Shown here piece after piece: positions 37,834-49,936 of a stretch of 64,000 bases of DNA. The DNA is taken from the NCBI GenBank assembly GCA_016793925.1, contig JAEULH010000026.1:1-64000 (forward strand). The letters run 5' to 3'. The notes under the pieces were generated by a model. The model searched no databases. It saw only the letters and a list, made by a program, of their open reading frames with translations, and was not told where the DNA came from. A program made the translations under genes and the position numbers. This DNA comes from Rhodospirillales bacterium (GTDB taxonomy: Bacteria > Pseudomonadota > Alphaproteobacteria > Rhodospirillales > Defluviicoccaceae). The first letter of the stretch is position 1; every line of letters begins with the position of its first letter.

Positions 37834-38208
37834 ATGGCGAAATCCATTCTTGTGGTCGAGGACGAACCGAACATCGTCCTCTCGCTACAGTTCCTGATGA
37901 AAAAGGCGGGGTTCGAAGTAAGGGTTGCGCGCGACGGCGAAGAAGCTCTGGCTGCGGTCGAAGAGCGCGCGCCGGACCTTATGCTGCTCGACGTCATGAT
38001 CCCGAAGCGCGACGGCTACGACGTCTGCCAGACGGTGCGCGCGAACCCGGCGTGGCAGGGCGTCTACATCATCATGTTGACCGCCAAGGGCCGCGAGGTC
38101 GACCGGGAGAAGGGCATCGCGCTGGGCGCCAACGACTACGTGACCAAGCCGTTTTCGACGCGCGACCTGACGGAGAAGGTCAAGCAGCTCCTCGGTCACA
38201 CGGCGTAG
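37834..38208 (+). CDS. Receiver-only response regulator
   Basis: This 124-residue CheY-like protein is a stand-alone receiver: phospho-acceptor Asp53 (LLDVMIP), acidic pocket E9/D10-E11, Thr83 and Lys105 (DYVTKPF). There is no output domain. It opens a plus-strand run with the exonuclease fusion and the symporter-kinase, so it is a plausible phosphate carrier between that kinase and a target not in the gene itself. A very strong GGAGGAGG site precedes it. Confidence 0.95.
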   Translation: MAKSILVVEDEPNIVLSLQFLMKKAGFEVRVARDGEEALAAVEERAPDLMLLDVMIPKRDGYDVCQTVRANPAWQGVYIIMLTAKGREVDREKGIALGANDYVTKPFSTRDLTEKVKQLLGHTA

Positions 38209-38285: not shown

Positions 38286-40403
38286 ATGGGCCCGCGGCTT
38301 TTTCTCATCGTCTGTTTCGGCGGACTGGCGGCAGCCGCCCTCCTCGCCGTGGTCGTCGGCGTGTGGCTGATCGCCGCCGCCCTGCCCGAAAACGGCGAGA
38401 GCGTTCGCAGCTTGGTGATCGTGTATGGCGGCGGCATCGCCTGCCTGCTGGTCGCCGTGATCGCGGTCCTCTGGGGCTATCTCGACCACGCCCTGGCGGC
38501 GCCGCTGGCGGCGGTCGTCCGCGGGATCCAGACCGTGGTCTACGCCAACGCCGAGCATCGCATCGAGGTCGACGACGACCACGAACTCGGCGGCCTGCCG
38601 ACGGCGGTCAACGATCTGGTGCGCAAGCTGTCCCAGGCGCGCAACAACGTCGAAGACGCGGTCGCGGCCGCGACCCGCTCGCTCGAAAAGCAGAAAAACC
38701 AGCTCGCCGTCATTCTTCAGGATCTTTCCGAGGGCGTCATCGTCTGTACGCTCAATCACAGCATCCTGCTTTACAACCGCCAGGCGCTGCAGCTTCTGCA
38801 CATCGGCGGCGACATCGGTCTCGACCGGTCGCTGTTCACCTTCATGACCCGGCAGCCGATTCTGCACTGTCTCGGCCGGCTGACCAACCGCGTCGCCGAG
38901 GGGCGCCACACCGACCATCCCGACGGGTTGATGGCCGCATGCGTCGGCGCCACCAGCGACGGCCGGCACATCCTGGATACGCGCATGAGCCTGATCCTCG
39001 ACCCGGAGGGCTCGGCGAGCGGATATGTTCTCACCTTCGACGACAATACGGACGAACTCGCGGCGCTGGGACTGCGCGACCGGCTGCTGCGCGAGGCGAC
39101 CGAAGGTCTGCGCGCGCCGGTCGCCAATCTGTCCGCCGCCGCCGAGATCCTTGGCGGCAATCCGGCGATGGACGCCGCCCAGCAGAGCCAGTTCAAGCAG
39201 GTGATCCTGAGCGAGAGCCGGTTCCTCGCCAACCGGCTCGAGCGCCTCTCCGCCTACTACCGCGACATCATCACCGCGCATTGGCCGATGCGCGACATCT
39301 ACTCGGGCAACCTGTTCAACCACGTCTCGTGCCGGCTCAGGGAACAGCGCGACGTGGCCACGGTGATGACCGGGCTGCCACAGTGGTTGCACGGCGACAG
39401 TTATACGCTGGTCGAGTTGCTCAATCGGCTGATCCTCAAGGTGGGCGACCTGGCCGGCGCGACCAGCTTCGACCTGGAGGCGGTGCGCGGCGACCGCCAC
39501 ATCTATATCGACGTCGCCTGGCGCGGCGACGCCGTTCCGGCGGCGGCGCTGAGTTCGTGGCTCGCCGACCGCCTGGACGATACCCTTGCCGGCCTCAGCC
39601 TGCGCGAGGTGCTCGATCGCCACCGCACCGATATCTGGAGCTTGGGCGGTCGCGATGGCGGCGCACGCTTGCGCCTGCCGTTGCCCCAGGCGAAACGAAG
39701 CACCCAGGGCGCCGACGTCCGGCAGTTGCCGCCGCGCCCGGAGTTCTACGACTTCGGTTTGCTCTCCCGCCCCGGCGACCTCGGCGAGCGCGCACAGCGG
39801 CCGCTGCGCGCCATCACCTACGTCGCCTTCGACACCGAGACGACCGGTCTGAACCCGGAAGCCGGCGATGAGATCGTCGCGCTGGCCGGCGTGCGCATCG
39901 TCAACGGCCGCATTTTGACGGGGGAATCCTTCGACCGCGTCGTCGACCCGGGGCGCGAGATCCCGGCGGAGTCGATCCGCTTCCACGGCATAACGGCCGA
40001 GGCCGTGAAGGACAAGCCGCCGATCCAGGTGGTTCTGCCTCAATTCCGGGCGTTCGTCGGCGATGCCGTGCTCGTCGCCCACAACGCCGATTTCGATCTG
40101 ACATTCATCCGCCTCAAGGAGAGAGAGAGCGGCGTCAGCTTCGCGATGCCTGTGCTCGACACGCTGTTACTTTCCGCGTACTTGCACGACTATACCGGTA
40201 AGCATAGCCTGGACGTGGTCGCCAAGCGCTTCGGCATCGAGGTTCGCGGCCGCCACACCGCGCTGGGTGACGCGCTGGTCGCAGCGGGCGTATTCTTGCG
40301 GATGATCGACGTGCTGGAGGCGCGGGGCATCCGCACCCTCGATGAGGCGCTGGTGGCGACGAACGCGCTTGCCGAGGCGCGGGCCAGACAAGCACGGGTG
40401 TAG
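38286..40403 (+). CDS. Membrane PAS/degenerate-kinase protein fused to DnaQ-type exonuclease
   Basis: The 705-residue product has two N-terminal membrane helices (about 3-30 and 45-70), a HAMP-like region, a PAS domain (about 140-260), a histidine-kinase-like dimerisation helix in which Glu273 stands where the phospho-His should be (TEGLRAPVANL), a degraded ATPase region, and a C-terminal 3'-5' exonuclease of the DnaQ/RNase T superfamily (about 510-690). The exonuclease keeps Asp516 and Glu518 (FDTETTGL), HNADFD and HTALGD. It therefore looks like a membrane pseudokinase controlling a nuclease. The ATG at 38286 is the only reasonable start, though its ribosome site is weak. Role inferred from neighbours: carboxylate signalling. 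Confidence 0.9.
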   Translation: MGPRLFLIVCFGGLAAAALLAVVVGVWLIAAALPENGESVRSLVIVYGGGIACLLVAVIAVLWGYLDHALAAPLAAVVRGIQTVVYANAEHRIEVDDDHELGGLPTAVNDLVRKLSQARNNVEDAVAAATRSLEKQKNQLAVILQDLSEGVIVCTLNHSILLYNRQALQLLHIGGDIGLDRSLFTFMTRQPILHCLGRLTNRVAEGRHTDHPDGLMAACVGATSDGRHILDTRMSLILDPEGSASGYVLTFDDNTDELAALGLRDRLLREATEGLRAPVANLSAAAEILGGNPAMDAAQQSQFKQVILSESRFLANRLERLSAYYRDIITAHWPMRDIYSGNLFNHVSCRLREQRDVATVMTGLPQWLHGDSYTLVELLNRLILKVGDLAGATSFDLEAVRGDRHIYIDVAWRGDAVPAAALSSWLADRLDDTLAGLSLREVLDRHRTDIWSLGGRDGGARLRLPLPQAKRSTQGADVRQLPPRPEFYDFGLLSRPGDLGERAQRPLRAITYVAFDTETTGLNPEAGDEIVALAGVRIVNGRILTGESFDRVVDPGREIPAESIRFHGITAEAVKDKPPIQVVLPQFRAFVGDAVLVAHNADFDLTFIRLKERESGVSFAMPVLDTLLLSAYLHDYTGKHSLDVVAKRFGIEVRGRHTALGDALVAAGVFLRMIDVLEARGIRTLDEALVATNALAEARARQARV

Positions 40404-40511: not shown

Positions 40512-40802
40512 ATGGAGGCGAACGGCGCGGGGGCGGCCGAAGCCCCCGAGGTGATCGAGCCGGAACGCGAAACGGCCGGCTTCATTGCGCTGTATCTGTT
40601 GGGCGTCGTCCTGTTCAGCCCGTTGCTGCTGACCGTGTTCGACGCGGCAGGCGCCCGTGTCGCCGGCGTCCCGCTGCTTTTCGTTTATCTGTTCGCAGCT
40701 TGGGCCGTGCTGATCGCGCTGACGGCGTGGCTCAGCCGGCGGATCGACGATCCGCCGACCGCCGCTCCGCTGCGGCCGGAACCGCAGTCGGACGGCGGCT
40801 GA
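40512..40802 (+). CDS. Small two-helix membrane protein before the symporter-kinase
   Basis: The 96-residue product has two hydrophobic helices (about 25-45 and 55-78, FIALYLLGVVLFSPLL and VYLFAAWAVLIALTAWL) between acidic N- and basic C-terminal ends. GGGAGAAG precedes the ATG. It begins 12 bases before the end of its own spacer to the kinase gene, so the two are likely co-translated. Small proteins of this kind often accompany SSS transporters; I infer an accessory role. Confidence 0.75.
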   Translation: MEANGAGAAEAPEVIEPERETAGFIALYLLGVVLFSPLLLTVFDAAGARVAGVPLLFVYLFAAWAVLIALTAWLSRRIDDPPTAAPLRPEPQSDGG

Positions 40803-40814
40803 GACGGGAGGCGA

Positions 40815-43601
40815 ATGAACGTGCTTCCCGGCTGGCTCATCATTGTCGCGGCTTTCGGCTACGTCTCGTTGCTGTTCGCCATCGCCTACTTTGCGGACCG
40901 CCACGGGCGCGGTCGCGGGCTGATCGCGAACCCCTACATTTACGCGCTGTCGATCGCCGTCTACTGCACCGCCTGGACCTTTTACGGCAGCGTCGGGCTG
41001 GCCGCGAAGAGCGGCATCGGCTTCTTGCCGATCTACCTCGGGCCGACCCTCGCGTTCCTTCTCGGCTGGATCGTTCTGCGCAAGATCCTGCGGATCAGCA
41101 AGGTTCACCACGTCACCTCGATTGCCGACCTGGTCTCCTCGCGCTACGGCAAGAGCCATCTCCTCGGCGGGCTGGTCACCATCATCGCCGTGGTCGGCAT
41201 CATGCCGTACCTGTCGCTGCAGCTTAAGGCGGTGTCGACCAGCTACAACGTCCTGCTTCACTATCCGGAAGTGACGGCGGCGGTGACGCCGGCGGACATG
41301 CCGTTCTTCGGCGACACCGCGCTCTGGATCGCGGCGATGATGGCTCTGTTCGCCATCCTGTTCGGCACCCGGCACATCGACGCCACCGAACATCACGAGG
41401 GCATGGTCGCGGCGATCGCCTTCGAGTCGGTGGTCAAGCTCGTCGCCTTTACCAGCGTCGGCCTGTTCGTCACCTACGGGCTGTTCGACGGTTTTCATGA
41501 CCTGTTCGCACAGGCGGCGGCCGAGCCGCGGCTGGCGCAACTGCAAACCGCGGACGCCGCCGGCGGGCAGTGGTTCCCCCTGACCTTCACCGCCATGTTG
41601 ACGATCATCTGCCTGCCGCGGCAGTTTCAAGTGATCGTGGTCGAAAACGCCGACGAGAGCCACCTGAAGAAGGCGATCTGGCTTTTTCCCCTATACCTCC
41701 TCCTGATCAACATCTTCGTCCTGCCGATCGCCTTCGGCGGCCTCTTGCGCTTTCCATTGGGCACGGTCGACGCCGACACCTTCGTCCTTGCCCTGCCCAT
41801 GGCCGAGCGACAGCCGTTGCTGGCGCTCCTCGCCTTTATCGGCGGCCTTTCGGCGGCGACCGGCATGGTCATTGTCGAGACGGTGGCGCTCAGCACCATG
41901 ATCTGCAACGACCTGATCATGCCGCTGTTCCTTCGCTTCGCCTTCTTGCGCATGTCCGAGCGGCGCGATCTGTCCGGGCTGCTGCTGGCGATTCGCCGCA
42001 CCGCCATCGCCGTGATCATGATGCTCGGCTACCTCTACTTCCGGCTTATCGGCGAATCGTTCGCGCTTGCCTCCATCGGCCTCGTCTCCTTTGCCGCTGC
42101 AGCGCAGTTCGCTCCGGCGATCCTTTTCGGCATCTACTGGAAAGGCGCCTCCCGTCGCGGCGCCTTGACCGGAATGATCGCCGGCTTCGTCGTCTGGGCT
42201 TACACGCTGCTCATCCCATCGTTCGCATTGTCGGGATGGCTGGAGGAATCGTTCATCGAGAACGGGCCGATGGGGATCGCGCTGCTCCGCCCCTACGCGC
42301 TGTTCGGCCTGGACGGCCTCGATCACATCACCCACTCGCTGTTCTGGAGCCTGCTCGCCAATGTCGGCGCCTTTGCCGCAGTGTCGCTGTCCGACCGGCA
42401 GAGCACCATCGAGCGGATCCAGGGCACTCTGTTCGTCGAGGTCTTCCGCCAGCCGGGCGCCGAGCCCGCCGGCATGTGGCAGGGGGCGGTTCCGCTCAGC
42501 GATCTGCGCGCGATGGCCGAGCGCTTCCTCGGGGGCGACCGGTCGCGCGAAATCTTCACCGAGTACGCCCGCAGGCACCGGGTCGACCTCACCCACGCCA
42601 CCCACGCCGACGGCGATCTGGTGCAGTTCGTCGAGCGTCGCCTTTCGGGCGTCATCGGCGCCGCCTCCGCTCGGGTCATGGTCGCGACGACGCTGAAGGG
42701 CGAAGGCGTCGGCCTCGAAGAGATCATGCAGATCCTCGACGAGACCTCGCAGGTTCTCGAGTACAGCCGCCAGCTCGAGCAGAAGTCGCGCGAGCTGGAG
42801 CGGGCTACGACCGACCTGAAGGCGGCGAACGAGCGGCTGACCGAACTCGACCGGATGAAGGACGACTTCCTCTCGACGGTCACCCATGAGCTGCGCACGC
42901 CGCTGACCTCGATCCGCTCTTTCTCGGAGATCCTCCACGACTCGCCCGACCTCGACCTGACCGAACGCCAGCATTTCCTGACGATTATCATCCGGGAAAG
43001 CGAGCGCCTGACCCGCCTCATCAACCAGGTTCTCGACCTGACCAAGATTGAGACCGGACGGATGAAGTGGCAGATGACCGATGTCGACCTCGGCGACGTC
43101 ATCGACCACGCGGTTTCGGCGCTGCGCCATCTGTTCGAAGAGAAGTCGATCGAGCTCACCGTTCATGCGCCCGATCGGGTGCCGCCGATCCACGGCGATC
43201 GCGACCAGCTCATTCAGCTCGTGATCAACCTGCTGTCCAACGCCGAGAAGTTCTGCCGCGCCGGCACCGGCCAGGTCGACGTGTCGCTGAAAACCGGCGC
43301 GCGCGCCGTCACGGTGAGCGTCGCCGACAACGGCGTCGGCATCCCGCTGAACGAGCAGGAGCTGATTTTCGAGAAGTTCCACCAGGTCCGCGCCGGCAAC
43401 ACGGGCAATCCGATGGGTTCGGGCCTTGGGCTTGCCATCTGTCGCGGCATCGTCGAACACCTTGGCGGCCGGATCTGGGTGCGCAGCACCCTGGGAAAGG
43501 GCGCGACGTTCTTCTTTACCGTCCCCTACGCCCGCGGCCGGATCGACGGGTCCGAGACGGCCTCGGCAGCGACGACAGAGGTCGGTGCGGCCGGCTCCTG
43601 A
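40815..43601 (+). CDS. Sensor histidine kinase with sodium:solute symporter input domain
   Basis: The 928-residue protein has an SSS-type transporter part of about 13 helices (1-520), a STAC-like linker, a coiled coil, a HisKA domain with phospho-acceptor His691 (VTHELRTPLTSI), and a HATPase domain with N box (LVINLLSNAEKF), G1 (VADNGVGIP) and G2 (GSGLGLAI). This is the CbrA/CrbS architecture, in which transport or binding of a carbon source is coupled to kinase activity. There is no attached receiver; the stand-alone receiver at 37834 is the likely partner. Acetate-type ligands are suggested by the neighbouring ActP genes. Confidence 0.95.
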   Translation: MNVLPGWLIIVAAFGYVSLLFAIAYFADRHGRGRGLIANPYIYALSIAVYCTAWTFYGSVGLAAKSGIGFLPIYLGPTLAFLLGWIVLRKILRISKVHHVTSIADLVSSRYGKSHLLGGLVTIIAVVGIMPYLSLQLKAVSTSYNVLLHYPEVTAAVTPADMPFFGDTALWIAAMMALFAILFGTRHIDATEHHEGMVAAIAFESVVKLVAFTSVGLFVTYGLFDGFHDLFAQAAAEPRLAQLQTADAAGGQWFPLTFTAMLTIICLPRQFQVIVVENADESHLKKAIWLFPLYLLLINIFVLPIAFGGLLRFPLGTVDADTFVLALPMAERQPLLALLAFIGGLSAATGMVIVETVALSTMICNDLIMPLFLRFAFLRMSERRDLSGLLLAIRRTAIAVIMMLGYLYFRLIGESFALASIGLVSFAAAAQFAPAILFGIYWKGASRRGALTGMIAGFVVWAYTLLIPSFALSGWLEESFIENGPMGIALLRPYALFGLDGLDHITHSLFWSLLANVGAFAAVSLSDRQSTIERIQGTLFVEVFRQPGAEPAGMWQGAVPLSDLRAMAERFLGGDRSREIFTEYARRHRVDLTHATHADGDLVQFVERRLSGVIGAASARVMVATTLKGEGVGLEEIMQILDETSQVLEYSRQLEQKSRELERATTDLKAANERLTELDRMKDDFLSTVTHELRTPLTSIRSFSEILHDSPDLDLTERQHFLTIIIRESERLTRLINQVLDLTKIETGRMKWQMTDVDLGDVIDHAVSALRHLFEEKSIELTVHAPDRVPPIHGDRDQLIQLVINLLSNAEKFCRAGTGQVDVSLKTGARAVTVSVADNGVGIPLNEQELIFEKFHQVRAGNTGNPMGSGLGLAICRGIVEHLGGRIWVRSTLGKGATFFFTVPYARGRIDGSETASAATTEVGAAGS

Positions 43602-43693: not shown

Positions 43694-45196
43694 TCAGAAG
43701 ATCTGGCCGGTGAACTCCAGGTGGACACGCTTGCGCAAGGAATCGATCGCCTTGAGCGCGTCGAGCAGGGCGGTGCGCTCCGCCTTCGCCAGGCGACGCG
43801 GATCGACGTAATAGGTGACCGGTTTGCCGGCCTTCAGATCCGCGATCTGGTGGCGAAGAAGAACGTTCGTGACAAGGTCGAACGACGCCGTCAGGTCCGC
43901 GCGCTCGCCGTCGCTCAGCACGCCCTGCTCGGTCAACGCCGAGATGCGGTGCACGGTCGAGGTCGCCTCGACCCCCTCGCGCAGCGCCAAGAGGCGGATC
44001 GCGCCCACCAGCGGGATGGTGCCGGTGTGTTTGAGGTTCACGCGGCCGCGATGCTCGCGCTGCTCGCGCTCGGTCACGAAGCCGCCGAAGAACCCGAGCG
44101 CGACGTTGTGCCCGGCCTTGTCCTGGAACATCTGGCGGAGAAAGTGGTGGTTGTTGCGCACCATGCCGGTCACGCGTCGGCGCAATTCCTCGGCCAGTTC
44201 CTGACGGCCCCAGACCGGCTGGAAGTCGAAGAAGATGTCCGCCAGCCGGATGGCGACGAAGTTGCTCTTCTTACCCCAGAGCGCGATCTGCTGGGTCCAT
44301 TGCGACAGGCTCTTGCGCCACAGCGGGTTCACCGCCATGCAGTAGCCGTTGCAGTAAGGGATGCCGATGGCGTCGAGGTCGCGGCACAGCCGCTCGGCCA
44401 GCTCGCGGTAGAAAGCGTCGACCTGCGCGTGGCGATCGTCCGGGTAGTCGGCGATGATGATGCCGTTGTCCTGGTCGGATGAGAGGAAGTTCTCGCCGCG
44501 GCCGCCCGATCCGGTGACGATCAGGCAGGCCTCCACCGGAATATCCCCCCAGCCCTCGGCCCCCATCCGGTTCAGGGTCGCTTCGCCCACCCGCCGGTAG
44601 ATGTCGTTGTTGATACGGCTCAGAAGCTGCTGGATCTCCGGGGCCGGCAGGTTGTCGGCGAACAGGTCCTCGGCGAGATCGACCTGGGCCGCCCTGAGCG
44701 CGCGAAGGCCTTCGCTCGTCCCCTCGTGGGTCAGCCGGTCGATCTGACGCATGAGCTGCTCGTCGGTCGCGGCGAGCGCATCGTGAAGGGACAGCAGTCC
44801 GGCAAGCTGGCCGTGTGCGTCGACGACCGGCATATGGTGCAGACCGTGACGGCGCATCAGGGCGATGGCGTAGTAGAGATAGTCCCTGCGCCGGACGGAC
44901 ATCGCCGGGGAGGTCATCACCCGTTCCACCGGCGTCTCTCCGGGCACCCGATAGGCGATGCGCAGGGCGATATCGCGCTCGGTGATGATGCCGACCGGTC
45001 TGGCGGCGGCGTCGACGACCACGGCGCAGGTTGCCTGCGTCGCGGCGAGCCGGCCGATCATGTCCTCGCACGCCGTATCCGGGCGGACAGCGAGGACCTC
45101 CTCGCCCGGTCGCATGAAATCGCGGGCAAGCTTGCTGAAGACGGCGGTGCGCGGATGATGTCGGGAAGGCCGCGCCGGCAGTGGCGCCCCGCTCAC
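43694..45196 (-). CDS. CBS-domain DUF294 nucleotidyltransferase
   Basis: This 500-residue protein has two CBS domains (about 25-140), a DUF294 nucleotidyltransferase-like domain (about 165-310) and the DUF294 C-terminal helical domain (about 340-490). The active-site pattern GSGGRGE with DQDNG is intact, so it could transfer a nucleotide to a protein partner, as GlnD-type enzymes do. Such proteins recur next to acetate/carboxylate symporters and CrbS-like kinases. It is on the opposite strand to its neighbours and divergent from the SSS transporter. Confidence 0.93.
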   Translation of the reverse strand: MSGAPLPARPSRHHPRTAVFSKLARDFMRPGEEVLAVRPDTACEDMIGRLAATQATCAVVVDAAARPVGIITERDIALRIAYRVPGETPVERVMTSPAMSVRRRDYLYYAIALMRRHGLHHMPVVDAHGQLAGLLSLHDALAATDEQLMRQIDRLTHEGTSEGLRALRAAQVDLAEDLFADNLPAPEIQQLLSRINNDIYRRVGEATLNRMGAEGWGDIPVEACLIVTGSGGRGENFLSSDQDNGIIIADYPDDRHAQVDAFYRELAERLCRDLDAIGIPYCNGYCMAVNPLWRKSLSQWTQQIALWGKKSNFVAIRLADIFFDFQPVWGRQELAEELRRRVTGMVRNNHHFLRQMFQDKAGHNVALGFFGGFVTEREQREHRGRVNLKHTGTIPLVGAIRLLALREGVEATSTVHRISALTEQGVLSDGERADLTASFDLVTNVLLRHQIADLKAGKPVTYYVDPRRLAKAERTALLDALKAIDSLRKRVHLEFTGQIF

Positions 45197-45748: not shown

Positions 45749-47737
45749 TTGGAAGCAAAAATCATTTGGCTGTTCGTCTTCGTCATTCTTTATTGGGCCT
45801 ATTGCATTTTCTGGGGCATCCGCGGCGCGCGCATGGCGCGCACGGCGAGCGATTATTTCATCGCCGGTCGGAAACTCTCTCTCTGGGTCTTCGTTCTCGC
45901 CGCGACAGCGACGTCCTTCTCCGGCTGGACCTTTATGGGCCATCCCGGGCTGATCTACCGTGACGGCTTCCAGTACGCCTTTGCGTCATTCTACACGATC
46001 ACGATCCCGTTCACGGGGGTCATCTTCCTTAAGCGGCAGTGGATGCTGGGCAAGCGTTTCGGCTACGTCACCCCCGGCGAGATGCTGTCGGATTACTTCC
46101 AGGGCGACGTCATCCGGATCCTCACCGTCGTCGTCGCCTTGTTGTTCTCGATCCCCTACCTCGGCGTTCAGCTTGAGGCGGCCGGTTACCTCTTCAATGT
46201 CCTGACGACAACGTCCCTCTATCCCACAGGGCTGGTCAGCGAAAACTTCGGCATGTGGGTCCTGGCGATCGTCGTGCTGATCTACGTCGCCTCCGGCGGC
46301 CTGCGCGCCGTCGCCTACGTCGATACGCTGCAATGCCTCCTTCTTGCCTTCGGCATCATTGTCACCGGTCTGATCGCGCTCAGCGCGGTCGGCGGCTGGG
46401 AAGCGCTCAACGAGGCCATGGCCCGCCTGGCGGAGACCTCGATCGGCAAGTGGGGCAAGACGGACGGTCTGGGCGGCGGTGACTACAACGCCTACTTCGC
46501 GATACCCGGCGTCATCCAGTGGACCGCGGGCCTGGGCAAGGAGACGCCGATCGGCGGCCTGTGGACCGGGGTGATGATCCTGACCTACATGTTTGCGCTG
46601 ATGGGGATCCAGGCGGCTCCCGCGTTCACCATGTGGGCCTTCTCAAACACCAACCCGTCGCCTTTTGCACCGCAGCAGGTCTGGGCGTCGTCTTTCGGGA
46701 TCGGTTTTATCCTCTTCTTTTTCACCGCAATCCAGGGCATGGCGGCGCATTTCCTCGGCGCTCAGCCGGCGGTCACGGAGGCCGGACTGGCGGTGGCCAA
46801 CGTCATACCATCCGAAGTCAACATCCGTCCCGATGCGCTCGTTCCCTTCTACTTCAACATGCTGAGCGAGCACTGGCCGTGGCTGATCGGACTGCTTGCG
46901 GTTTGCGCCCTGGCGGCGATGCAGTCGACCGGCGCCGCGTACATGTCCACCGCGGGCGGCATCCTGACCCGTGACCTTTACAAGCGCTATCTCAACCCGG
47001 GCGCGACCCACGCGACCCAGAAGCTGTTCGGCCGCCTCGGCGTCGCCTTCATCGTGATCTCCGCGTTGATGGTCGCCACGTACTCAAAGGATGCGCTGGT
47101 TCTCCTGGGCGGACTCGCGGTCGCCTTCGGCTTCCAGATGTGGGTGCCGCTCGCCGCGATCTGCTATATTCCCTGGGTGACCCGGCAGGGTGCAACGCTG
47201 GGGCTTGCGGCGGGCCTGCTCGGCGTCACCTTCACCGACAGCTTCGGGCTGACGCTGCTCAACGCCCTCGGTCTGCAGCCCTGGGGGCGGTGGCCGCTGA
47301 CGATCCACTCCGCCGGCTGGGGGATCCTGCTCAACATCGTCGTCTGCCTCGTCGTCTCGGCGGCGACGCAGAGCGACCAGGCCCGCGCCCATCGCATGAA
47401 GTATCACAACTTCCTGCGCGAGCACGCCAGCCTGCCCCAGGCCAGGCGTCACCTCGTTCCCGTCGCCTGGATCGTAACGCTGGCCTGGTTCTTCTTCGGC
47501 ATCGGGCCCGGCGCAGTCATCGGCAATGACCTCTTTGGGGCTCCGGACGCCGGTCGCGACGGCTGGACTTTTGGCATCCCGTCGATCTGGGCCTGGCAGA
47601 TCCTGTTCTGGCTGCTCGGCGTCGCGATGATGTGGTTCCTCGCCTACAAGATGGAAATGTCGTCCGTGCCCAAGGCGGAAGTTTCGGCACTGGTCGAAGA
47701 CATCGGCGACAGCTCTCTGGAAAAGCCCGGCGTATAG
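45749..47737 (+). CDS. Sodium:solute symporter family protein
   Basis: This 662-residue inner-membrane transporter of the SSS family has about 13-15 helices. The segment DYFIAGRKLSLWVFVLAA near the start and the SGGLRAVAYVDTLQ region are family-typical. It is about 100 residues longer than acetate permease ActP, the extra length being loops and a C-terminal helix. The start is a TTG with GAGAGGAGT eight bases upstream. The solute is probably a short carboxylate judging by neighbours; sequence alone cannot say. Confidence 0.92.
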   Translation: MEAKIIWLFVFVILYWAYCIFWGIRGARMARTASDYFIAGRKLSLWVFVLAATATSFSGWTFMGHPGLIYRDGFQYAFASFYTITIPFTGVIFLKRQWMLGKRFGYVTPGEMLSDYFQGDVIRILTVVVALLFSIPYLGVQLEAAGYLFNVLTTTSLYPTGLVSENFGMWVLAIVVLIYVASGGLRAVAYVDTLQCLLLAFGIIVTGLIALSAVGGWEALNEAMARLAETSIGKWGKTDGLGGGDYNAYFAIPGVIQWTAGLGKETPIGGLWTGVMILTYMFALMGIQAAPAFTMWAFSNTNPSPFAPQQVWASSFGIGFILFFFTAIQGMAAHFLGAQPAVTEAGLAVANVIPSEVNIRPDALVPFYFNMLSEHWPWLIGLLAVCALAAMQSTGAAYMSTAGGILTRDLYKRYLNPGATHATQKLFGRLGVAFIVISALMVATYSKDALVLLGGLAVAFGFQMWVPLAAICYIPWVTRQGATLGLAAGLLGVTFTDSFGLTLLNALGLQPWGRWPLTIHSAGWGILLNIVVCLVVSAATQSDQARAHRMKYHNFLREHASLPQARRHLVPVAWIVTLAWFFFGIGPGAVIGNDLFGAPDAGRDGWTFGIPSIWAWQILFWLLGVAMMWFLAYKMEMSSVPKAEVSALVEDIGDSSLEKPGV

Positions 47738-48307: not shown

Positions 48308-49936
48308 ATGAGCGGTGGAACGAACATCGAAGCGATCATATTCTTCTTCGTCTTCGTCTCCTTCACCCTGGGCGTCACCTACTGGGCGGCGCGTCGGACC
48401 AAGACGGCCGAGCACTTCTATGCCGCTGGCCGCTCGATCACCGGCTTCCAGAACGGCCTCGCCTTGGCCGGCGACTACATGAGCGCGGCGAGCTTTCTCG
48501 GCATCGCCGGCCTCGTGGCCCTGAACGGGTTCGACGGTCTGATCTACTCGACCGGCTGGCTGGTCGGCTGGCCGATCATCCTGTTCCTCATCGCCGAACC
48601 GCTGCGCAACCTCGGCAAGTACACGTTCACCGACGTGGTCGCCTACCGGCTTCGGCAGAAGCCGGTGCGTCTCGCGTCTTCGCTGGGTACGCTGGCCGTC
48701 GTCCTGACCTACCTCATCGCCCAGATGGTCGGCTCGGGAACGCTGATCAAACTGCTCTTCGGTCTCGACTACACCTTCGCCGTGATCATCGTCGGCGTGG
48801 TGATGATGACGTACGTCCTCTTCGGCGGCATGATCGCGACCACCTGGGTGCAGGTGATCAAAGCCTGCCTGCTCCTGGGCGGCGCGACCATCATGGCGCT
48901 GATCGTGCTCTCCAAGTTCGGCTTCAACCCGATGAACCTGTTCTCCAAAGCGGCGGAAATGAACGGCCAGAAGGTTCTCGAGCCGGGCACCAAGGTCGTC
49001 ACCGGCGCCTGGGACGCGGTCTCGCTCGGTCTCGCCCTGATGTTCGGTACCGCCGGACTGCCCCACGTACTCATGCGCTTCTACACCGTGCCGGACGCCA
49101 AGGCGGCCCGCGTCTCGGTGATGTGGGCAACCATCTGGATCGGCTCGTTCTATCTGATCACCTTCATCCTTGGCTTCGGCGCGATGGTGCTGGTCGGTCA
49201 GCAGCAGATCCTCGCCGTCGGCGGCGGCGGCAACATGGCGGCGCCCTTGCTCGCCCAGGCAATCGCCGGGAATATCTTCTTCGGCTTCATCTGCGCGGTA
49301 GCCTTCGCGACCATCCTCGCGGTGGTGGCCGGCCTGACCCTTGCCGGCGCCGGCGCGCTGTCCCACGACCTGTGGGTCAACGTCATCCGCGGCGGCCATG
49401 CGCCGGAGCGCGAGCAGCTCGTCGTCGCCCGGATCTCGTCGATCATCCTCGGCATCGGCGCGGTGATCCTGGGGATCGTCTTCCAGGGCCAGAACGTGGC
49501 CTACATGGTCGGGCTGACGTTCTCCATCGCCGCTTCTGCCAACTTCCCGGCGCTGATCATGTCGGTGTTCTGGCGGCGCTTCACCACCTGGGGCGCGGTC
49601 TGCAGCATCCTGTTCGGCACCATCGGCACGCTGTTGCTGATCTACCTCGGGCCGACCATCCAGATCGATCTGCTTGGCCCGAAAGCGGCGGCGGCGGGTG
49701 CGGCACCGGATGCGGTCGCCGCGGCGAAGGCGGCAATGGACGCCCACGCGGCCCACGTAACCAGCCAGTGGTGGTACTTCCCGCTGAAGAACCCGTGCCT
49801 GTTCACGATGACCGGCGCCTTCCTGGTCGGCATCATCGTCTCGCTGATTGCTCCGGAGCGGTCGGCGGAGGAAGGCTTTACCGAAGTCGAACGCCGGGCA
49901 CTTCTCGGCGAACCGACGGTGTCGGCGGCGGAGTAG
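48308..49936 (+). CDS. actP: Cation/acetate symporter ActP
   Basis: This 542-residue SSS transporter takes up acetate and related short acids with Na+. The helix pattern, the early [20 protein letters not shown] segment and the late [19 protein letters not shown] segment match ActP. Length is normal. It is coupled to the DUF485 gene and is closed by a strong terminator. With PhaR it fits import of acetate for polymer storage. Confidence 0.96.

Follow-up and report, generated by a model that had tools for sequence, protein, structure and literature searches.

Two-component systems in which an SSF symporter is fused to a HisKA kinase have been described as CrbS/CrbR and RpuS/RpuR, and their genes lie beside those of SSF transporters (PMC5715377, PMC9100948). 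In Pseudomonas putida, PP_0353 and PP_0354 are targets of MxtR/ErdR, the equivalent of CrbS/CrbR: PP_0353 is a lone RNase_T exonuclease whose operon also encodes a CBS-domain protein (PMC9927547). As reported there, strains without PP_0353 grow more slowly on pyruvate, whereas a mutant of the CBS gene PP_0354 has no pyruvate defect; the authors suggest a role in mRNA decay, and the control that they describe is transcriptional, via ErdR (PMC9927547). The locus presented here lies in a 64-kb stretch of Rhodospirillales DNA, referred to as the window. As in CrbS/CrbR and RpuS/RpuR, there is an SSF symporter-HisKA kinase (40815-43601) beside SSF transporters; unlike in CrbS/CrbR, the only receiver of the window is a single-domain protein that lacks a DNA-binding part. 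By description, the locus also resembles PP_0353/PP_0354, as it has an exonuclease gene beside a CBS-DUF294 gene and a link to a symporter-kinase two-component system. It differs from that pair, as described in PMC9927547, in that it has a dead kinase and a stand-alone receiver in addition.

With the DEDDh exonucleases of PF00929 (DnaQ epsilon, PolC exo, DinG, ExoX, RNase T and Cap18), the protein shares the fold and the five catalytic residues, but the domain, for which 3'-5' nuclease activity is predicted, is anchored in the membrane behind a dead kinase. A second comparison concerns this dead kinase. In DivL, the phospho-His is replaced, and DivK is a single-domain receiver. In Caulobacter, DivK~P reportedly works together with the pseudokinase DivL, whose reported target is the kinase CckA (PMC4853435). 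Here, too, a kinase fold without the phospho-His is found beside a stand-alone receiver, a link that comes from genomics, whereas DivL carries no exonuclease. Finally, a neighbouring gene encodes a protein with the polymerase-beta-type domain and motif of the GlnD/GlnE/DUF294 nucleotidyltransferases as described in PMC3710099; in contrast to those, its partner is an exonuclease, to which it is in some cases fused.

Results

Architecture of the fusion protein

The features of the locus are as follows, with the evidence in brackets.

37834..38208, + strand: stand-alone receiver, 124 aa, with phosphoacceptor Asp53 and Lys105 retained (Pfam, alignment)
38286..40403, + strand: membrane PAS / pseudo-histidine-kinase / DEDDh exonuclease fusion, 705 aa (ORF, Pfam, alignment, model)
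38292..38486, + strand: two transmembrane helices, residues about 3-31 and 39-67 (hydrophobic stretches around 5-33 and 42-67; helices in the model)
38700..39044, + strand: PAS-like domain, residues 139-253 (sub-threshold Pfam PAS matches; PAS fold in the model)
39048..39278, + strand: dead two-helix docking (DHp-like) domain, residues 255-331 (alignment, pattern scan, Foldseek, model)
39102-39104, + strand: Glu273 at the phospho-His position of the docking domain (alignment)
39291..39689, + strand: degenerate ATPase-like (CA) domain, residues 336-468, lacking N box and G1 (alignment, pattern scan, model)
39735..39755, + strand: conserved linker motif RPEFYDF, residues 484-490 (homologue comparison)
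39819..40310, + strand: DEDDh 3'-5' exonuclease domain, residues 512-675, with D516, E518, D604, H657 and D662 (Pfam, alignment, VIA)
40512..40802, + strand: small membrane protein, 96 aa, encoded ahead of the symporter-kinase (translated sequence)
40815..43601, + strand: SSF symporter-histidine kinase with HisKA and HATPase, the proposed phosphate donor (Pfam)
43694..45196, - strand: CBS-DUF294 nucleotidyltransferase, GSGGRGE...DQD motif seen in the translation (Pfam; motif in neighbours)
45749..47737, + strand: SSF sodium/solute symporter (Pfam)
48308..49936, + strand: second SSF symporter

The ATG start of the 705-aa open reading frame, upstream of which the frame stays open, takes its sole support from homologues that likewise start with MxPR. 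A Pfam search of the protein reported no kinase domain and matched the exonuclease family PF00929 at 513-670 (E=3e-34). The AlphaFold2 model, built from 41 sequences (mean pLDDT 81.8, pTM 0.52), places from the N- to the C-terminus two membrane helices, a PAS fold, docking helices, an ATPase-like domain, a low-confidence linker and the exonuclease. In a first model, made from 16 sequences, the middle of the protein resembles WalK, YycG, HK853, HK853-RR468 complexes and the pseudokinase DivL (structure 4q20) according to Foldseek; the folds of HisKA-type docking and ATPase domains are present (Foldseek matches; pLDDT 82 for the 41-sequence model). A PAS-like fold is seen in this first model too. 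The C-terminal end of the 41-sequence model resembles PolC (Z 25.2) and DnaQ epsilon (Z 21.8) in VIA-align, the top-ranked matches covering mostly the kinase part in Foldseek and the exonuclease in VIA-align. The linker motif RPEFYDF is also found, slightly changed, in stand-alone membrane exonucleases. These analyses bear out the original prediction, which had described two membrane helices, a PAS domain, Glu273 in place of the phospho-His, degraded ATPase motifs and an intact DnaQ-like exonuclease, all in a gene between a stand-alone receiver and a symporter-kinase; the 96-aa membrane protein, which precedes the latter, has to be added to this order.

Conservation and distribution of the family

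The loss of the phospho-His and the retention of the exonuclease residues both extend to the family. At position 273, 87 aligned homologues of at least 580 aa have Glu (46), Asp (20), another residue (17) or a gap (4); His is present in none of the 83 with a residue there, and a pattern scan found the canonical His box in none of the 117 fusions that have docking helices. The same scan gave an N-box pattern in one and the DxGxG (G1) pattern in two of these 117, at least one of these matches being misplaced. In the long homologues, D516 and E518 are kept in 87/87, and D604, H657 and D662 in 84/84, with three gaps; the scan patterns used to find homologues, FDTETTGL and [PSA]RPEFYDF, partly selected for the first two residues, and the other three are free of this bias. 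Neither outcome that would have refuted the original prediction was seen: no homologue has a normal His, and no long fusion has lost its exonuclease residues. Likewise, 98-99 of the 99 receiver-linked fusions keep all five, with one gap, and many of these 99 had been detected by their N-terminus alone. Positions +1 and +4 of the His box, which are the phosphatase residues of HisKA kinases, are not conserved in the alignment of long homologues (G/R/A and A/R/G). Since these positions are lost as well, docking would be the remaining known role of the dead kinase. Judged from the alignments, the kinase fold has been kept and all kinase motifs lost, and the exonuclease residues are invariant.

The fusion of two membrane helices, PAS, dead kinase core and intact DEDDh exonuclease is an old and widespread family. 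Among 41 genomes (the window's own and 40 relatives), the long orthologous fusion is present in the own genome and 17 others, and a membrane exonuclease without the kinase part in four. Distribution searches used a profile of the first 480 residues. With a cut-off at E 1e-20, it matched 20 of the 289 genomes searched in the class, at 22 places, 8 of which lack the exonuclease and resemble ordinary sensor kinases; in the window's own phylum, 53 of 397 sampled genomes gave a strong match (E no higher than 1e-25). Pattern scanning retained 80 of 326 confirmed loci, the titles of which name alpha-, beta-, gamma- and deltaproteobacteria and a few MAGs of Nitrospirota, Acidobacteriota and Flavobacteriales. 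Viral contigs gave 20 matches, all to the exonuclease part (residue 507 onwards), and no fusion. There are also short forms that consist only of membrane helices, PAS and exonuclease. Eight matches (L151-L157 and L159; E about 1e-21 to 1e-24, about 760-850 aa) have no exonuclease and were not counted as members; we take them to be ordinary PAS sensor kinases of the NtrY type.

The own genome encodes a second fusion (34% identical), and this gene (L214, contig C47) directly follows a cNMP-CBS-DUF294 gene and a CBS protein and has no receiver beside it. A Halomonas locus has another, lone exonuclease about 7 kb downstream of its fusion (L098:18592-19260). On an Agrobacterium plasmid, a relative without a Pfam-recognised kinase part (L226) follows genes for DUF4212, an acetate symporter and a cNMP-CBS protein and adjoins an IS6 transposase and nos genes. 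At L197:1445-3850 (-), beside a DUF294 gene, the start of a fusion is joined in frame to the rear of an apparent acetyl-CoA synthetase; this reading frame is a probable misassembly.

Association with a stand-alone receiver

The gene at 37834..38208 encodes the only receiver in the 64-kb window. Collapsing 178 loci with such an exonuclease left 165, of which 161 were family members by score; 154 of these were usable (at least 500 bp upstream, no frameshift), six being left out for want of upstream sequence and one as frameshifted. Docking helices and a receiver directly upstream occur together at 99 of the 154 loci, docking helices only at 18, neither at 36 and a receiver only at one. A receiver thus lies directly upstream of 99/117 fusions with docking helices as compared to 1/37 relatives without them (Fisher p 1.7e-20), and the sole receiver-only locus, L207, has docking helices by eye and is a detection miss. 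On the 154-tip exonuclease tree, a model of dependent evolution of docking domain and receiver beats the independent one (LR 43.3, p 8.8e-9), in a quick fit with some extreme rates; by parsimony, the docking domain changed 12 times and the receiver 18 times. All 100 receivers are single-domain proteins that end at most 17 residues past the matched domain, and by sequence they are phosphorylatable: Asp53 is kept in 99/100 and Lys105 in 100/100.

Among the 18 loci where the docking helices are present but no receiver lies directly upstream are the paralogue of the own genome and L054, where the receiver is directly downstream. At L212 and L213, two loci that lack the docking helices, a receiver gene follows the exonuclease gene at a distance of about 2 kb. 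When covariation between receiver and docking helices was analysed by direct coupling in 99 proteins, the interface was not enriched: it accounted for 7 of the 100 best pairs, against 11.3 expected, at a low power set by an effective number of 78. A natural single chain of receiver and fusion was not found, and the structure model is that of a monomer. The absence of the receiver from relatives without the docking part suggests that the nutrient signal may control the nuclease directly, beyond the switching of genes; the linked losses could also reflect the loss of a whole operon module.

The symporter-kinase and its operon

A full symporter-kinase is encoded within 5 kb at 25 of the 68 loci that have 5 kb of sequence on either side: at 23 of the 35 with docking domain and receiver versus 2 of the 33 others, so that 12 of the 35 have none nearby. 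The 96-aa membrane protein, which matches no Pfam family above the cut-off, has homologues in several loci. In Paracoccus denitrificans PD1222, plasmid 1 carries a string of genes for the nucleotidyltransferase, the small membrane protein, the symporter-kinase, the receiver and the fusion (PDEN_RS25395-RS25415), each of which overlaps the next by a few bases.

The CBS-DUF294 nucleotidyltransferase

By gene association, the strongest partner of the fusion is the predicted CBS-DUF294 nucleotidyltransferase; neither this partner nor its natural fusion to such an exonuclease figures in the original prediction. A DUF294 gene lies within 5 kb of the exonuclease gene at 54 of the same 68 loci, and the GSGGRGE...DQD motif is kept in 113/114 distinct DUF294 neighbours. 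Conversely, 19 of the 31 DUF294 genes in 22 related genomes are within 7 kb of an exonuclease gene, and of the three true DUF294 genes in the own genome, two are near the two fusions. The pairing persists at 21/22 loci without docking domain or receiver; the neighbourhood controls consisted of only three plain DnaQ-type loci, none with DUF294. Moreover, a relative encodes a 704-aa single-chain exonuclease-CBS-DUF294 protein (L227:1199-3313), and such single chains were found in 6/397 genomes of the phylum (L231-L236), with 38-42% identity over nearly the full length. The five exonuclease residues are all kept in six of the seven single-chain proteins; L236 has lost three. The L236 genome has a separate membrane-PAS-exonuclease gene about 1 kb from its single chain.

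Discussion

On balance, we favour the view that the protein is a membrane-anchored DEDDh exonuclease, the dead kinase front of which serves as a docking and signal-transmitting module for the receiver, so that the signal would run from the symporter-kinase via the receiver to a gated exonuclease that works with the nucleotidyltransferase. The symporter-kinase would sense carboxylate uptake, autophosphorylate and pass the phosphate to the stand-alone receiver. By analogy to DivK~P and the pseudokinase DivL, this receiver may dock on the dead two-helix domain and, with the PAS domain as a second input, change the activity of the exonuclease; we infer both the docking and the direction of control. 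As to the substrate, the exonuclease and the CBS-DUF294 nucleotidyltransferase might share one, from which the former removes and to which the latter adds nucleotides, the more tentative step of this scheme. The original prediction had put the nuclease under direct control of the acetate-sensing pathway; what stands of this is control by the neighbouring symporter-kinase pathway, which gains support, at the level of genomics, from the receiver/docking association, from the fact that the 64-kb window has no other receiver, and from the Paracoccus operon.

A more speculative, and rather doubtful, extension is that the direct output of the two-component system is a writer-eraser pair in place of transcription: a CBS-gated nucleotidyltransferase would add nucleotides to an RNA 3' end, a protein or a small messenger, and the receiver-gated membrane exonuclease would remove them, thereby bringing post-transcriptional or post-translational control into line with carbon uptake. 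This idea is limited by P. putida, where, as reported in PMC9927547, the exonuclease mutant has a pyruvate defect and the CBS-gene mutant has none, which argues against a simple shared task.

Three other explanations have to be weighed. First, the dead kinase might work backwards, sequestering the receiver to tune the symporter-kinase pathway, with the exonuclease as an independent output that is tethered for location or expression. The same association of receiver and docking domain fits this view, and the docking part can be lost where exonuclease and DUF294 stay together (21/22 loci), so that the exonuclease does not need the receiver. However, the 64-kb window offers no other receiver as the possible real output, and the docking part is always joined to the exonuclease, the sole exception among the strong matches being the probable misjoin L197. 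We regard this explanation as unlikely. Second, the PAS domain and the state of the membrane alone might regulate the exonuclease, the receiver and the symporter-kinase belonging to a pathway of their own that has only the operon in common with it, as the 18 fusions without a receiver directly upstream and the forms made of membrane helices, PAS and exonuclease could indicate. This is hard to reconcile with the coincidence of docking-domain and receiver losses across independent losses, also where no symporter-kinase is near (12/35 loci), and it seems improbable to us. Finally, that an ordinary DnaQ-like exonuclease for DNA repair or proofreading was fused by accident to a decayed sensor is very hard to believe in spite of the closest structures being DNA exonucleases (PolC, Z 25; DnaQ, Z 21.8), given the conservation across phyla with invariant residues, the constant gene partners and the membrane anchor that is kept even in the short forms examined.

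The link of an exonuclease to such regulons is already known from Pseudomonas, as described in PMC9927547. New are the association of receiver and docking helices, the DUF294 neighbourhood with its single-chain proteins and the overlapping five-gene string of P. denitrificans PD1222; the dead-kinase fusion, its receiver and the exonuclease-DUF294 pair as such were not found in the open-access literature. If the gated-exonuclease reading is true, a sensor of nutrient uptake would be wired straight to a nuclease via a dead kinase, an output that we did not find in that literature either. The compact Paracoccus operon, present in a named and culturable bacterium, makes this reading testable. If true, the reading would also explain the role of the exonuclease and CBS-DUF294 genes in the acetate and pyruvate regulons.
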